From: Gemmatimonadota bacterium
Lineage (GTDB): Bacteria > Gemmatimonadota > Gemmatimonadetes > Gemmatimonadales > GWC2-71-9
Reading direction: 5' to 3'
Length of the DNA: 32,943 bases
NCBI GenBank assembly: GCA_025357945.1
Contig: JANYLJ010000049.1
Span: 1-32,943 of the forward strand
Shown here: positions 1-31,327 of the stretch, in pieces
How the letters are laid out: every line of letters starts with the position of its first letter
How positions within the stretch are numbered: the stretch's first letter is position 1
The notes under the pieces: generated by a model
Told to the model about the DNA's origin: nothing
Databases searched by the model: none
What the model saw: only the letters and a program-made list of their open reading frames with translations
Program-made: the position numbers and the translations under genes

Positions 1-116
1 CGCCGAGACGGGAGCGGCGAGAGAGATGAGGGAGATGAGCGAGAGACGAGAGACGAGAGACGAGAGACGAACAAATGTGTAATTGCAACGATGACATTTT
101 ACCAGGGCTGCCGATC

Positions 117-1841
<1,725 letters not shown>

Positions 1842-10920: not shown

Positions 10921-11490
10921 ATGACCGAACTGGCCGCACCACAGATTTCGTCCCTGATGGAAGCCCTGCCTGGCATTGCGGCGGTCCTGCGCAGCCCGGT
11001 CGCCAACGCCATGGTGGCCATTTCACGGGCTGCCGCTGGCCTTGAGGAGTTCCAGTTGGTGCATGGCGAGGAGTTGCTCAAGTTCGGGGTCCGCCGCAAC
11101 CTGCTGACGCCCGAGGAGGTCGACAAGGTCCTCGACGAGCTGCGCGAGGTGGTGTCGAAGCGCCCGGCGAAGCCCGTCCCGCCCGTCCTCAAGAAGGCCG
11201 CCGCACTCGCACCGAAGCCTGATCTGCCCAAGGTGCCGCATCGCCCCAAGGGGATCCAGCTGAAGCCTGTGCCCAAGCGGCCACCACCACCGCCGCCGCC
11301 GCCGCCCCCGAAGGCCAAAGCCCCCGCGCCGGTCAAGAAGCCAGTCGCGAAAAAGGCGGCGCCCCCGAAGGTCGCCGCCCACAAGCCTGCTGCCCACAAG
11401 TCTGCTACCCACAAGCCAGCCGCCCACAAACCGGCCGCCCACAAGCCGGCGCCCAAGCTTGCCAAGAAGGCCGGCCACAAGAAGCGCTAG
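10921..11490 (+). CDS. Histone H1-like protein with AHKP repeats
   Basis: 189 residues in two parts. Residues 1 to about 75 form a compact helical region ([18 protein letters not shown] through [16 protein letters not shown]) that I cannot assign to a family. The rest is Lys-, Pro- and Ala-rich: a run of ten or so prolines, then tandem AAHKP pentads and a basic end, KKAGHKKR. The tail is like the C-terminal domain of histone H1 and bacterial HctB/AlgP-type proteins, so it probably binds DNA or another polyanion. GAGGG lies 5 nt before ATG 10921, which makes this start better than the ATG at 10885. Transcription likely starts from the dyad-bearing promoter just upstream. Its stop overlaps that of the convergent chemoreceptor gene in the shared tetranucleotide CTAG. 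Confidence 0.85.
11380..11454 (+). repeat. 15-bp tandem repeats coding Ala-Ala-His-Lys-Pro
   Basis: About five degenerate 15-nt units (GCCCACAAGCC-type) encode the AAHKP pentads of the H1-like protein. Third-base differences between units show they are not a recent expansion. Confidence 0.8.
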
Positions 11491-14836: not shown

Positions 14837-15880
14837 TCAGCCAGCCTGATCGGCCGTTTCCTTTTTCACGCGTCTCTCGTCTCTCGTCTCTCGGCTCTCG
14901 TCTCGCCCAAAATCCATCTTCGCCTTGTACATCCACCTGCCATCCAGTTGCCAGATTTTCTTCGCCGAGATGCCTTCGCCTTCGGGGAAGTTTTCCTTCA
15001 AGGCATAGGCTTCGATGATCGACGCCGTCTTCGCGCTCGCGTCATCGGCAAAGTGGAGGATTTCCGCCTCCAGTGTCAGCGGCTTGACCGGTGCGCCGAA
15101 TTCCAGTTTGCCGTGGTGCGAGAGGATGAAATGTTCGAGGATCAGCTGCTCCTGGGGCGTGCATGGTGGGCTCGCCGCCCGCTCGATCGCGTGCTGCAAC
15201 ATGATCACGCCCTGCACAACGTGGCCGACCAGGCGACCGCGTTCCGTGGTGTCGAACGCTCCGGATTTCCAGCTATAGCAGTCGAGCTTGCCGATGTCGT
15301 GCAGCAGCACCCCTGCCACCACCAGTTCGATGTCGGCTTTGGCGACCCGCGCGATCTGCCGTCCGATCACCAGGACTTCGTAGGTGTGCTGCAGCAAGCC
15401 ACCGAGCATCGCATGGTGGCCGGTACCTGGCGCACCGGGGCACTGCTCGTAGCGTTCGCGAAATGCCTCGTCACGGTAAAAGAGGTCGAGCACCGCCCGC
15501 AGGCGTGCTGCGGTGAGTTTCTCGCGCGTCTCGTCGATGAACTGCCAGTACTTGTCCACCGGCCCCACGCTGGGCACCAGGTCGGCGAGCGGGACGCTCC
15601 CCTTGGGAAGTACCCGGACCGAGACCGCCTCGAGCTGATTGCTGTCGCGGTAGCTGGTGACCTTGCCGACCACCTGGACCAGCATCCCCTTGGCAATACC
15701 GCGGATCTGGTCGTCCCGCCCGGCCCAGAACGGCGCCGATACGATGTGCCCGGTCCGGTTGCCGAACGTCAGGGTGGTGCGCGGGTGCTCACCAGCCTTG
15801 GCGTCGACGTCGATCACCATGAGCGGGTGATGCACGTCGTTGCCTGGGGCGAGGGAGGGAATATCGAGGAGCTGGGTCAT
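14837..15880 (-). CDS. YhaM-like 3'-5' exoribonuclease (OB-fold + HD)
   Basis: 347 residues. The N-terminal part contains an OB-fold (GMLVQVVGKVTSYRDSNQ) and the C-terminal part an HD phosphohydrolase domain with HHAMLGGLLQHT (about 155-166), LLHDIGK (H194/D195) and SHHGKLEFG, as in Bacillus YhaM and relatives that degrade RNA or DNA from the 3' end. ATG 15880 was chosen because it matches the family N-terminus and has TATCTT 8 nt upstream, a leaderless arrangement. The last 20 or so residues are odd: ESRETRDERR is encoded by a heptanucleotide repeat tract (14871-14905), so the normal tail has been replaced or extended by repeat DNA. It is divergent from the Fis-type gene, 69 nt away. Confidence 0.87.
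   Translation of the reverse strand: MTQLLDIPSLAPGNDVHHPLMVIDVDAKAGEHPRTTLTFGNRTGHIVSAPFWAGRDDQIRGIAKGMLVQVVGKVTSYRDSNQLEAVSVRVLPKGSVPLADLVPSVGPVDKYWQFIDETREKLTAARLRAVLDLFYRDEAFRERYEQCPGAPGTGHHAMLGGLLQHTYEVLVIGRQIARVAKADIELVVAGVLLHDIGKLDCYSWKSGAFDTTERGRLVGHVVQGVIMLQHAIERAASPPCTPQEQLILEHFILSHHGKLEFGAPVKPLTLEAEILHFADDASAKTASIIEAYALKENFPEGEGISAKKIWQLDGRWMYKAKMDFGRDESRETRDERRVKKETADQAG
14871..14905 (+). repeat. Single heptanucleotide tract (TCTCGTC)n
   Basis: Copies at 14875-14881 and 14882-14888, a variant with GGC at 14889-14895, and a copy at 14896-14902, with partial units at each side. No inverted partner is found within 350 nt. On the minus strand it encodes the charged C-terminal tail of the YhaM-like protein. 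Confidence 0.9.
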
Positions 15881-15888
15881 GGGGGCGC

Positions 15889-15894
15889 AAGATA
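15889..15894 (-). promoter_or_regulatory. Leaderless-type -10 (TATCTT) before 15880
   Basis: The minus strand reads TATCTT, 8 nt, ATG. No Shine-Dalgarno is present. Confidence 0.55.
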
Positions 15895-15937
15895 CGCGCA
15901 TGTCCCGCGCCCCTCGACCCCTGGCCCCCGCCCACGA

Positions 15938-15943
15938 TACCTT
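15938..15943 (+). promoter_or_regulatory. Leaderless-type -10 (TACCTT) before 15950
   Basis: TACCTT, 6 nt, ATG 15950. It lies 43 nt from the opposing -10 element, so the two divergent promoters share one short region. Confidence 0.55.
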
Positions 15944-15949
15944 GGGCGC

Positions 15950-16270
15950 ATGCGTCCGCTGCACATCCAGCTGCTCGTGACCGATCCGCAACGCGAGGAC
16001 GTCGCCGCCCTGCGGCAGGCGCTTCGGGGGGCGGGTCACGTCGTGGTCGACGGCGAGGTGCAGCAGTTGCCCGACGGGATTTCGACCGGCGCCGACTTCG
16101 TGGTCACCGAAGCGGCTGCGGTGCCCACCCCCGAGTCGCTCGACGCGGCGGAGGCACGCCACCTCCGGGCCATGTTGCGGTTCACGAACGGCAACAAGCG
16201 ACAGGCGGCATTGCTGCTTGGTATCGCCCGGTCGACGTTACTGGCGAAGATCCGGAAGTACGGGCTCTAA
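15950..16270 (+). CDS. Stand-alone Fis-type HTH protein
   Basis: 106 residues, close in size to Fis (98). The C-terminal part, NGNKRQAALLLGIARSTL followed by KIRKYGL, is the HTH_8 DNA-binding motif otherwise found at the end of NtrC-family activators. The N-terminal 50 or so residues (PLHIQLLVTDPQREDVAALR) look like the start of a receiver-like alpha/beta domain but are too short for one, and no AAA+ domain is present. It may be a nucleoid-type regulator like Fis or a small local regulator, perhaps of the divergent YhaM-like gene. TACCTT lies 6 nt before the ATG. The stop TAA overlaps the stop of the convergent pseudopilin gene. Confidence 0.85.
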   Translation: MRPLHIQLLVTDPQREDVAALRQALRGAGHVVVDGEVQQLPDGISTGADFVVTEAAAVPTPESLDAAEARHLRAMLRFTNGNKRQAALLLGIARSTLLAKIRKYGL

Positions 16271-19752: not shown

Positions 19753-20016
19753 ATGACCTCTCCGTCTCCCGATACGATCGACCTTTCCAGTGCCGACCAC
19801 ATGGGCGACCTCGCCCGTGGCGGCACCAACTGGTCGGTCCATCTCGAAACCCGACAGGACGGCCCGGTGACGGCTGGCCGCGTCCATTTTGTCGCTGGCG
19901 ACGTGCGCCGCTCGTCGGCGTGGATCTTTCGCGAGTGGACGGTGCCGGACGTGAAGGCGCGTTTCGCGGAGTTCTCGCCACTGGAGCTGTGGAGATTGCT
20001 GGAGAGCCTGAGCTGA
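19753..20016 (+). CDS. Small acidic protein of unknown function, 87 residues
   Basis: An 87-residue frame from ATG 19753: MTSPSPDTIDLSSADHMGDL, then a beta-like stretch (GGTNWSVHLETR, GRVHFVAGDVRRSSAWIFREW) and a helix (PLELWRLLESLS). The pattern fits a small single-domain protein but I cannot name it. A TTG at 19729 gives an eight-residue longer option. TATTGG lies 7 nt before the ATG, a poor match to the -10 elements seen in front of leaderless genes here. The 3' end lies 9 nt before the first arm of inverted repeat IR2. It is in the same direction as the Omp85-like gene and might be co-transcribed with it. Confidence 0.6.
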   Translation: MTSPSPDTIDLSSADHMGDLARGGTNWSVHLETRQDGPVTAGRVHFVAGDVRRSSAWIFREWTVPDVKARFAEFSPLELWRLLESLS

Positions 20017-20024
20017 GCCTGAAG

Positions 20025-20132
20025 CAGGAGAGACGAGAGACGAGAGACGAGAGACGAGAAAATCGGGGCCCGGGGGCCGACCCTCCGATGGCTCGCTCCT
20101 CGTCTCTCGTCGCTCGTCTCTCGTCTCTCCTG
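20025..20132. repeat. Inverted repeat IR2 spanning the start of the Omp85-like gene
   Basis: Arms 20025-20058 and 20099-20132 are 34 nt long and match with a single mismatch (GAGAGAC in one arm, GAGCGAC in the other). The left arm contains four exact GACGAGA copies at 20032-20059. The 40-nt loop (20059-20098) contains the ATG at 20088 and further self-complementary GC blocks, ATCGG/CCGAT around GGCC pairs. The right arm encodes residues 5-15 of the signal peptide of the downstream protein. Confidence 0.92.
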
Positions 20133-21719
20133 TGCGTCTTCTCGCTGCTGGTCCCCGGCGTTTCGGCGGCCCAGGTCGCGCTGCGCGATTCGCTGCCGCA
20201 CATCTCCAGCATCATCATCAGGCGCAACAGCATTTTCGACTCCGGTGATTCCAGCTGGTTCGCGCGCACGATCAATTCCCTGCATGTCACGACGCGTGAG
20301 CCGCTGATCCGCCGCGAGCTGCTCTTTCATCCCCACGAGCGCTACGACTCCGCCCGGATCGCCGAATCCGAACGGATCCTGCGGTCGCTGCGGGTCTTCC
20401 GCGCGGTGGAAATCGACTCGACATCCAGCGATTCAGGTGTTGCGCTACGCGTCACCACGCACGACGGCTGGACCACGCGTCCGGACTTCCGGTTCCGCTC
20501 CACCGGCGGCTCAGTGGTGTACACCCTGGCGTTGATCGAAGACAACCTGCTCGGCACGCTCACCCAAACCGCGCTGCTCTATCAGAAGGACCCCGATCGC
20601 AGCACGACCGTACTGCGGCTCTCGCGTGGCCGGTTGATCGGAGGCAAGGTGGCCGGCACGCTCTTCTACGCCAATCGCTCCGACGGCAACCTCGGGTTCG
20701 CGCAACTGGCTCTCCCGTATTTCGAGACGGCGTCGCCCCTGGGCGCCGCGCTCACCTTCGACGACCGACGCGACCGGATCTTCCGGTATCGTGACGGCGT
20801 GCCGATCGCACACGACACGCTGCAGAACCGCTACGTGCTGGTTCGGGGCGACTTCAGTCACGCACTTCACGCATCGTCGTTTGGATACCTGCGCGCCGGC
20901 ATCACCGCGCAGGTGCGCCGCGACGACTACATCGGCGATCGCGACTATCAGTCGGCCGGCTTCGCCGCCGCCAGCGTGACCGGTGCCGTCGGTGCATTCG
21001 TGGAAGTATCGCACGTGAAGAAGCCCAAAATCGTCGGATTCCAGACGCTGGGCCATCAAGAGGACATCGATCTGAGTTCGGTGGTGCGCGTCTCGCTGTT
21101 CGCCGCTCCCGCGGCCCTGGGATACCCCGACGGCCACACCGGGCTCGTCCCAACCATCGGACTCCACACCGGCGTGCAGTTCCACGGTGGATTCGCCTAC
21201 GCTGATTTTTTCGCTGGCGGGCTGTACACCGCGACCGGACTCGACTCCGGGCAGGTCGTTCTGAGCGGCACCGTCGCGTTGCTCCCCTCGACGCGACACC
21301 AGCTGACCCTGCACGGCGAAGTCGGTGCGCTCCGAACCCCGCTTCCAGGCACCGAATTCGACCTCGGGCTCGGCGCCGGGCCGCGCGCGTTCAGCCAGCA
21401 TTCATTCACCGGTGATCGGGAATTTTTCGGCACCGCGGAATACCGATACACCGTCAGCCCGGAGTTGTTCAAGGTTGTCGGTGTGGGCCTCGCCGCGTTC
21501 GTCGATCATGGCGGCGCCTGGTGGTCCGGCGAGAAACGCCGTTCCGGCTGGGACTTCGGCGTCGGACTTCGGCTGGCGGCGTCCCGCGCGCCCGACCTGG
21601 AAACCAATCGTATCGACCTGGCGTGGCGTGCCGCGCAACCAGGAATGCCCGGCGGCTGGGTCGTCGCCGTCGGCAAGGGGTTCGTGTTCGCCACTGGTCC
21701 GAGAGGAACATCACGATGA
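20088..21719 (+). CDS. Omp85/BamA-like outer-membrane barrel protein
   Basis: 543 residues. Signal peptide about 1-27 (MARSSSLVARLSSLLCVFSL, cleavage near VSA), then a POTRA-like region about 35-125 (IRRNSIFDSGDSSW through VTTHDGWTTRPD) and a long beta-rich part with alternating aromatic and polar residues. It ends in a C-terminal strand region, VVAVGKGFVFATG, as in surface-antigen/Omp85 barrels. It has only one or two POTRA-like units, fewer than BamA, and is nearer in size to TamA/FhaC relatives, so the exact partner is unknown. The start codon lies in the loop of inverted repeat IR2 and the signal peptide is partly encoded by its right arm. ATGA joins it to the next gene. Confidence 0.82.
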   Translation: MARSSSLVARLSSLLCVFSLLVPGVSAAQVALRDSLPHISSIIIRRNSIFDSGDSSWFARTINSLHVTTREPLIRRELLFHPHERYDSARIAESERILRSLRVFRAVEIDSTSSDSGVALRVTTHDGWTTRPDFRFRSTGGSVVYTLALIEDNLLGTLTQTALLYQKDPDRSTTVLRLSRGRLIGGKVAGTLFYANRSDGNLGFAQLALPYFETASPLGAALTFDDRRDRIFRYRDGVPIAHDTLQNRYVLVRGDFSHALHASSFGYLRAGITAQVRRDDYIGDRDYQSAGFAAASVTGAVGAFVEVSHVKKPKIVGFQTLGHQEDIDLSSVVRVSLFAAPAALGYPDGHTGLVPTIGLHTGVQFHGGFAYADFFAGGLYTATGLDSGQVVLSGTVALLPSTRHQLTLHGEVGALRTPLPGTEFDLGLGAGPRAFSQHSFTGDREFFGTAEYRYTVSPELFKVVGVGLAAFVDHGGAWWSGEKRRSGWDFGVGLRLAASRAPDLETNRIDLAWRAAQPGMPGGWVVAVGKGFVFATGPRGTSR

Positions 21720-22141: not shown

Positions 22142-22758
22142 GCGTGGTGCAGCGCTCGGCGGCGATCCTGTTTGCCGCCGGCACGCTCGCGTGCCACGGT
22201 AACCCGGATGCATTGCTGTCGGCGCACGGGTTCATCGGCGCGGAGCTAGCCTCGCCGCTGCCGAAGCCGAGTGTTTTATTCACCGACTCTCGCGGCCATC
22301 CGTTTCAGCTCGACTCCGCCACCGCCGGCATGGTGACGCTCCTCCTTTTCGGCTACACCAGCTGTCCGGACGTCTGCCCGGTCCACCTCGCCAACCTGGC
22401 GGCGGTGCTCGACAAGATGCCGGACGACGTCCAGCGCGCGGTCACGGTGGTGTTCGTCACGACCGATCCAGCGCGCGATACACCGGCGGTGCTCGATGCC
22501 TGGGTGAAAGGGTTCGACCCACACTTTATCGGGCTCACCGGTTCCGACTCGATTATCGCAACGGCGCAGCGTATGGTTCACTTGCAGCAGGCCGTGAAGG
22601 GAAAGCCCGACGCGACGGGGGCCTACCCGGTGGGCCACGCGGCCGGCGTGATCGCCTTCACCCGCGACGGGCTCGGTCGCGTGGAATACCCCCCGGGTAC
22701 GCGCCAGCGGGATTGGGCGCATGACTTGCCGATTCTTGCCGGATACGGAGCGAAGTAG
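22138..22758 (+). CDS. Sco1/SenC/PrrC-type copper chaperone
   Basis: 206 residues. Sco proteins bind copper and help load the CuA or CuB centre of cytochrome oxidase. The thioredoxin-like fold shows the copper site YTSCPDVCP (C76, C80) and the distal His ligand H167 (YPVGHAAG). The N-terminus is a signal with a Cys at position 19 (GTLAC), possibly a lipoprotein although the lipobox is imperfect, so it sits outside the inner membrane. GTG 22138 overlaps the previous stop (GTGA). The CtaG gene begins 115 nt downstream, on the other side of inverted repeat IR3, which fits a copper-oxidase assembly pair. No oxidase subunit gene lies in the window. Confidence 0.92.
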   Translation: MSVVQRSAAILFAAGTLACHGNPDALLSAHGFIGAELASPLPKPSVLFTDSRGHPFQLDSATAGMVTLLLFGYTSCPDVCPVHLANLAAVLDKMPDDVQRAVTVVFVTTDPARDTPAVLDAWVKGFDPHFIGLTGSDSIIATAQRMVHLQQAVKGKPDATGAYPVGHAAGVIAFTRDGLGRVEYPPGTRQRDWAHDLPILAGYGAK

Positions 22759-22860
22759 GAGAGACGGGAGACGAGAGACGAGAGAGACCGGCCAGTCAGG
22801 GAAGATCCTCACCCAGCCGGCGGCCTTTGCTCGTCTCTCGTCTCTCGTTTCCCGTCGCTC
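22759..22860. repeat. Inverted repeat IR3 between sco and ctaG
   Basis: The left arm starts one base after the Sco stop (22759-22788) and the right arm is 22829-22860. Reverse complementing the right arm gives a match with about two mismatches over 26-28 nt, followed by a small slip. Both contain the GACGAGA heptad and a shared variant, GACGGGA. The 40-nt loop has a CGGCC/GGCCG pair. The right arm ends at 22860, directly before TAGTTT (22862-22867), the -10-like element of the leaderless ctaG gene. The arm therefore lies across that promoter's -35 region. Confidence 0.88.
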
Positions 22861-27802: not shown

Positions 27803-27873
27803 GGCGCCGTAGCCAAGTGGTAAGGCAGAGGACTGCAAATCCTCCATCACCGGTTCGACTCCGGTCGGCGCCT
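27803..27873 (+). tRNA. tRNA-Cys (GCA)
   Basis: A 71-nt cloverleaf. The acceptor stem GGCGCCG (27803-27809) pairs perfectly with CGGCGCC (27866-27872), and the discriminator is T at 27873, the base cysteinyl-tRNA synthetase expects. The anticodon stem GAGGA/TCCTC encloses loop CTGCAAA with anticodon GCA at 27835-27837. The T arm holds GGTTCGACTCC. The 3' CCA is not encoded. No terminator stem is seen directly after it. Confidence 0.97.
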
Positions 27874-30910: not shown

Positions 30911-31327
30911 ATGGTGATGAGCGAAGGATCGTTCGATTTCCAGTACGGGTCGCTCGAGGCAGGTGCGTCTGCCCCGACCCTCGCGCCGCGTTACGAAGTC
31001 CCCGAGCCCGCCCCGGGTGCGGTGATCTCCAAGCCGCGCAAGAAGAAGGCAGCTGCCCCGAAGCCCGCCGCCAAGGCGGTCCCGGCCAGGAAGGCCGCAC
31101 CCGCCAGGAAGGCCGCACCGGCGAAGAAGGCGGCGCCGAAGAAGAAGGCGGCCAAAAAGGTCGCCAAGAAGCCGGCCAAGAAGGTCGCCAAGAAGTCGGC
31201 CAAGAAGTCGGCCAAGAAGGCCGCCAAGAAGGGGAAGCGGTCCACCCCGAAGAAGGCCGCGAAGAAGGGCGCCAAGAAGGCGGCGCCCAAGAAGAAGCCG
31301 GCCAAGAAGGGAAAGAAACGCCGGTGA
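30911..31327 (+). CDS. Histone H1-like Lys/Ala-rich protein
   Basis: 138 residues. About 35 N-terminal residues are acidic to neutral (MVMSEGSFDFQYGSLEAG). The rest is almost wholly Lys, Ala and Pro in AAKKxA/KKVAKK repeats, ending KKPAKKGKKRR, like the C-terminal domain of eukaryotic H1 and bacterial Hc1/Hc2- or AlgP-type proteins. It should be disordered and bind DNA along its length, compacting it or adjusting transcription. AGGAG (30899-30903) lies 7 nt before ATG 30911. A perfect TATAAT lies about 85 nt upstream, so it may be well expressed. Its stop overlaps the GTG of the amidohydrolase gene, and a strong hairpin follows 22 nt later. It is the second H1-like gene in the window. Confidence 0.9.
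   Translation: MVMSEGSFDFQYGSLEAGASAPTLAPRYEVPEPAPGAVISKPRKKKAAAPKPAAKAVPARKAAPARKAAPAKKAAPKKKAAKKVAKKPAKKVAKKSAKKSAKKAAKKGKRSTPKKAAKKGAKKAAPKKKPAKKGKKRR

Follow-up and report, generated by a model that had tools for sequence, protein, structure and literature searches.

An inverted repeat at 20025-20132 places the start codon of an Omp85-like gene in its loop and part of the signal peptide in its right arm, which raises the question of whether such a hairpin is a device for the control of translation or export, as the original prediction proposed, or a repeat that a gene has come to accommodate. The window (the whole stretch of DNA analysed) is one entire contig of 32,943 nucleotides from a Gemmatimonadota bacterium of soil, whose draft genome of 3.01 Mb is referred to below as G000; other G numbers denote congeners. 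The features of the window are collected in Table 1.

Table 1. Coordinates of the hairpins, arrays and neighbouring genes in the window.
Feature	Coordinates	Strand	Remarks
Probable assembly fold-back	1..39	+	exact reverse complement of 174-212
Heptad hairpin of the amidohydrolase gene	40..172	+	arms 40-70 and 143-172; ATG 117 in loop; signal peptide in right arm
Single CT-type array	14871..14904	-	3' end of ORF 14837-16162 (-); translated as C-terminal RDESRETRDERR tail
Conserved small upstream gene	19753..20016	+	ATG 19753 by reading; gene caller picked 19801
Left arm	20025..20058	+	GAGAGAC heptads (about 4.5 units) and CAG
Loop, 40 nt	20059..20098	+	inner GC hairpin possible
ATG of the Omp85-like gene, in loop	20088..20090	+	only ATG, GTG or TTG here yielding a usable signal peptide
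Omp85-superfamily-like outer membrane protein gene	20088..21719	+	Pfam PF01103 and orthologues
Right arm	20099..20132	+	CTCGTCT heptads; in-frame reading SLVARLSSLL, signal peptide part
Second complete heptad hairpin	22759..22860	.	left arm immediately past TAG 22756-22758; right arm stops short of CtaG-like gene

A long hairpin at the start of an Omp85-like gene

The 34-nt arms, the single mismatch, the 40-nt loop with the ATG and the signal peptide in the right arm were all borne out by our analysis, with 33 of the 34 positions paired (97% complementary). Shuffled sequence gave zero inverted repeats as strong, and the repeat is far beyond chance. The predicted N-terminus of the Omp85-like protein, MARSSSLVARLSSLLCVFSLLVPGVSAAQ, is a signal peptide, of which the right arm encodes roughly residues 5-15. 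The Pfam match of the ORF is weak (E 7e-5, slightly under the curated cut-off), and orthologues were found in 10 of 10 genomes of the genus. The small upstream gene, with 93-96% identity in G009, G006 and G003, ends with TGA at 20014-20016, 8 nt ahead of the left arm, and the locus looks like a short operon junction.

The predicted RNA fold of the hairpin is very stable (-91.2 kcal/mol, z = -7 versus shuffles), which agrees with a start codon carried on a long stem; the AUG, however, is not in an open loop, as in the minimum-energy fold a small inner GC hairpin partly fills the loop and the A and U of the AUG lie in a bulge. The view of the arms as true inverted copies needed amending: no more than CAG/CTG (3 nt) falls outside the heptads, and the lengths of partner arms in the heptad family described below are uncorrelated (r = -0.01). 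Mirrored sharing of variants between the arms of the family was likewise not significant (permutation p = 0.12), and perfect fold-back copying between arms is thereby out as an origin. No T run (U-tract) follows the right arm after 20132, where an intrinsic terminator would carry one. Rfam returned no curated-family match for the hairpin, its sole match in the window being a tRNA (27803-27873), and no known structured RNA family could be assigned.

A family of heptad hairpins built from one unit

From the search of G000 for GAGAGAC arrays, we obtained 150 exact 21-nt matches, with 0 matches to a reversed-pattern control. The site list was compiled from pattern searches and the stretches around the matches, and its numbers are lower bounds (at least 60 sites); it holds 66 heptad sites, one of them duplicated across two contigs, of which 49 are inverted pairs and 17 are single arrays. 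In all 49 paired sites the GA array comes first, with 0 sites in the CT-first order. Loop sizes peak at 37-45 nt and again at 72-86 nt. Loop sequences show a weak relatedness that exceeds that of shuffled ones, yet they differ from site to site and from species to species, with no likeness at orthologous sites, so the loop was rejected as a conserved core; some loops hold terminator-like GC hairpins with T runs. None of the six frames of a GAGAGAC repeat contains a stop codon, and whichever frame is taken, the CT strand encodes SRLSSLV, a Leu/Ser/Val-rich heptapeptide. Gene calls were made with a simple codon-based caller, and several contig ends of the draft coincide with these hairpins (C1, C6, C7, C33, C45).

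A few further observations concern repeats in and around these sites. The loops of L017, L028, L031, L023 and L038 contain a further palindromic repeat, of the GTCATCCCGAGCGNAGCGAGGGATCGG type, which is also free in G009 and at one site (site 41) replaces the G000 heptads in G009. L011 and L016, near contig ends, have an almost identical loop and right flank, which suggests a duplicated segment or an assembly overlap. At L019 (3436-3474) a heptad array falls inside a long minus-strand gene prediction of 845 aa and is translated as SRFSSLVARLSSL; it may be an internal insertion, or the ORF may have been joined wrongly. The window also contains Lys/Ala/Pro-rich coding repeats of AAGAAGNCGGCC units at 31040-31309 and 11300-11450, with a histone-H1-like tail resemblance by repeat search only.

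Heptad hairpins lie at gene ends

Arms mostly stand 0-11 nt behind stop codons, the bulk of the distances falling between -6 and 11 nt, whereas those between arms and start codons are scattered around 40 nt. At same-strand paired sites, the stop side is nearer than the start side in 19 of 23 (sign test p = 0.0013). Convergent junctions account for 24 of 60 heptad sites versus 45 of 327 background junctions from the same loci, and in about half of the convergent paired sites both stops are within 6 nt of the arms. In eight genes the array is translated as a C-terminal tail of the type ETRDERR. Together, the closeness of arms and stops, the stop-side bias, the convergent excess and the C-terminal tails indicate that the gene end is the common position of heptad hairpins, to which 20025-20132 conforms with its left arm opening just past the stop of the small gene. 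Within 50 bp downstream of stop codons, the heptad sites of G000 have their purine-rich strand as sense, and at nearly all sites other than those with a start in the loop the hairpin lies behind stop codons with no start codon within. TAG and TAA are over-represented among the stops adjoining sites (TAG 33, TAA 19, TGA 19) relative to all predicted genes (TGA 196, TAG 97, TAA 49).

Congeners carry other words in the same architecture

We then compared repeat-blind stretches of G009 (400 kb), G003 (240 kb) and G006 (160 kb), which hold 33, 25 and 0 period-7 arrays, respectively, and 0-1 arrays of periods 5 and 8. Of 22 neighbouring pairs in the unbiased samples, 17 had one unit in both inverted partners. 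Paired units in the same orientation are GGTGAGA, CTGGGGG, AGAGCCC and ACGTGAG in G009 and GAGACTA, GATGACA, ATGATGG and AAGGGGG in G003. By whole-genome counts, GATGACA has 97 matches in G003 and 0 elsewhere in the genus, GAGACTA has 81 in G003 and 9 in G005, GGAGAAC is present in G005, G002 and G004, and GAGAGAC occurs in G000 (138 matches), G002, G008 and G009 with a trace in G003. The related loci beyond the genome of the window are in Gemmatimonadetes MAGs, and 51 genomes of other genera in the same family and order gave 0 GAGAGAC arrays. The presence of one word at dozens of loci per genome, with other words in sister genomes, argues for dispersal by copying and not by local slippage alone.

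Presence and absence also vary at orthologous junctions. At the site of the 22759 hairpin, G009 and G006 are without a hairpin and have spacers of 37-43 nt instead. At the Omp85 junction, no hairpin is present in G001, G003, G005 or G006, and a direct array of GGAGMAC is all that G004 has. G008 keeps a heptad hairpin, and in G009 two perfectly matched arms of 23 nt, differing in sequence, flank an assembly gap, which takes the place of the loop. Several other G009 hairpins are broken by NN, e.g., at G009:C8 ~799600 and 867893 (L064, L068), their loops missing from the assembly.

Among candidate spreaders, a Y1 transposase gene (PF01797) is present in G000 and absent from the heptad-bearing G009, G002 and G008 (G002 and G008 being 80-86% complete), and a RAYT/IS200-type transposase was rejected for lack of correlation with the repeats. 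A reverse transcriptase was rejected as well, its single match being in G001 and not tracking the repeats.

Start codons in loops and signal peptides in arms

The start-in-loop geometry recurs at three sites in G000, two of them common to relatives. All three belong to genes of exported proteins whose start codon falls in the loop and whose signal peptide lies in the CT arm: the amidohydrolase (ATG 117), the Omp85-like protein (ATG 20088) and, starting with GTG, an M23 peptidase that has a PcsB-like coiled coil (L010). The layout of the amidohydrolase gene is kept in G009. At the Omp85 junction, the start codon lies within the hairpin in G000, the loop of G008 is without an in-frame ATG, GTG or TTG, and the loop of G009 falls in the assembly gap.

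The amidohydrolase hairpin stands at the left end of the window, where the original prediction had seen an independent repeat of the same design at 1-212. The heptad hairpin with its start codon and signal peptide is upheld, but the mirror match of 1-39 with 174-212, at the very start of the contig, is a likely fold-back. The end of contig C33 (L022) has 122 nt in common with window 40-161, with an identical loop and a different left side, in which eleven heptads stand directly behind a stop codon. The orthologue of the last gene of C33 in G009 (151/198 residues identical) is directly upstream of the amidohydrolase orthologue (455/575). Because of these shared bases and the synteny in G009, C33 can be taken as the true neighbour, and 1-39 is most likely an assembly fold-back at a contig end. 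The real hairpin at the start of the window is composed of the C33 heptads and window 40-172, its true left part being on C33; the long non-heptad mirror match that suggested exact inverted copying is an artefact, while the heptad hairpin is real. The two sites are also not independent, as both belong to one repeat family.

Few regions of a protein other than a signal peptide could absorb such a repeat, since the arrays are open in six frames and the CT strand reads as SRLSSLV. The recurrence of the layout reflects one repeat family that can be absorbed into signal peptides and not an independent design, and we read the start-in-loop layout as accommodation. That relatives have kept it still allows for a secondary regulatory effect.

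Interpretation

The explanation that we favor, with a probability of roughly 0.6, is that 20025-20132 is a copy of a dispersed, lineage-specific gene-end hairpin element which has been accommodated in an operon junction, its 3'-end function and its origin by dispersal being the inferred parts. The element consists of two tandem arrays of one 7-nt unit in opposite orientations, led by the purine-rich array, on either side of a core that mostly measures 37-45 nt. Because the element is palindromic and sits between gene ends, a transcript crossing from either side would form the same long hairpin just past its stop codon, where it may help to terminate, process or protect the mRNA as a structured 3' end; RNase III could also cut a stem longer than 30 bp. 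The copies would have spread by a copying process, and their arms may have been lengthened or shortened separately by slippage. The start of the Omp85 gene and its signal peptide have come to lie inside the element because it offers no stop codon in six frames and a Leu/Ser/Val-rich CT strand, and any effect on Omp85 translation would be a by-product or, at most, a later adaptation. Against a gene-end role, the right arm of 20025-20132 is not followed by a U-tract, and the Omp85 site is within an apparent operon, in which termination would come at a cost. That two congeners keep a hairpin with changed arms at this site could reflect selection on pairing. The element is not essential, as G006 is without any in 160 kb.

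A serious rival, to which we give a smaller but real chance, is a dispersing repeat that is neutral or selfish and without a function at the RNA level. Slippage and copying would generate the hairpins and purifying selection would leave them in the least harmful places, i.e., short spacers behind stops, away from promoters, and sometimes tolerant coding ends. The free variation of presence and absence among congeners (down to the empty G006 stretch), the independent arm lengths, the eight genes with heptad-encoded C-terminal tails and the unconserved loops at orthologous sites are consistent with this explanation, whereas the strict GA-first orientation, the modal loop of 37-45 nt and the frequent sharing of one unit by inverted partners would be unexpected of random leftovers.

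More speculatively, a dedicated putative copying activity might place a 7-nt word peculiar to each species behind genes as inverted pairs, so that the word changes between species and the architecture is kept. The hairpins would then form a general system for 3' ends, open to recruitment as ready-made signal peptides as well, a reading that we regard as unlikely. Slightly less likely still is the translation switch of the original prediction, in which the hairpin hides the Omp85 start and couples translation to upstream termination or to export. The stable predicted fold, the start in the loop at three genes (ATG at two, GTG at the third) all with signal peptides, and the retention of the layout in G009 at the amidohydrolase gene and of the Omp85 arms in G009 and G008 speak for a switch. 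As the purpose of the hairpin, it is opposed by the rarity of the layout among about 60 sites, the others lying behind stops, by the four congeners without a hairpin at the Omp85 junction and the G008 loop without a standard start codon, by the weak fold of the G009 amidohydrolase hairpin (z = -1.9), and by the one repeat family that accounts for the recurrence. Least probable is an element acting at the DNA level, such as a cruciform or replication-fork hairpin (e.g., a supercoil or protein-binding site) whose RNA form is irrelevant: dyad symmetry makes both strands equivalent and the contig ends at hairpins fit sequencing or replication trouble, but the tight relation to stop codons and the shortage at divergent promoters point to transcripts.

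Close relatives with, without and with other words provide a test set for both function and spread. The Omp85 and amidohydrolase genes show a route by which a repeat becomes part of a signal peptide, and the left end of the window is a warning that such hairpins produce fold-back errors at contig ends.

Comparison with known systems

REP/BIME elements with RAYT transposases are intergenic palindromes at gene ends. The hairpins described here are also gene-end palindromes, and some Gemmatimonadota loops hold a GTCATCCTGAGCG-type palindrome; unlike in the REP/RAYT system, the arms are tandem heptads, and the Y1 transposase is missing from the hairpin-bearing G009. Rickettsia palindromic elements are palindromic repeats accommodated in reading frames, from which the heptads are set apart by description, their coding use being almost always at gene ends. 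Like intrinsic (Rho-independent) terminators, the hairpins stand just past stops and a few loops have a GC hairpin with a T run, but the arms of 25-40 nt, the loop of ~40 nt and the bare 3' flank of 20025-20132 differ. A survey of 118,019 genomes found inverted repeats enriched at +50 to +80 behind bacterial stop codons (PMC13155455).

None of the papers searched dealt with such repeats in Gemmatimonadota, and the nearest parallels are heptanucleotide repeats of other bacteria. The TAACTGA direct repeats of marine Beggiatoaceae lie upstream of start codons and are inverted in one of 170 sets (MacGregor, 2015; PMC4679880). They are likewise abundant intergenic tandem repeats with one unit per genome, and differ in being ahead of starts and almost never inverted. 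The GGGAATC heptamers of Xanthomonas are dispersed, mostly intergenic repeats of 2 to many copies, with 70-75 convergent inverted pairs; their purine-rich strand is sense where a stop codon is within 50 bp, they are seldom seen at divergent junctions, no mobile element could be associated with them, and their function was left open (Rehm et al., 2015; PMC4692102). The same study describes Nostoc heptameric repeats with the unit GGGGA(C/T)T and tentatively attributes the Xanthomonas repeats to G-quadruplexes (PMC4692102). The Gemmatimonadota repeats are of this type in the enrichment of a 7-nt unit over other periods, the inverted pairs of fixed orientation and the proximity to stop codons. They differ in that GAGAGAC has no GG or GGG tract, which excludes a G-quadruplex role for this unit (some congener units, AAGGGGG and CTGGGGG, do have G-tracts), in that the unit varies between species of one genus, and in that arms are read as signal peptides or C-terminal tails. 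Paired arrays behind stops were already known from Xanthomonas. In essence, since the architecture is Xanthomonas-like while the unit is unable to form quadruplexes and changes among sister species, the hairpin and the 7-nt period appear to be what the systems share.
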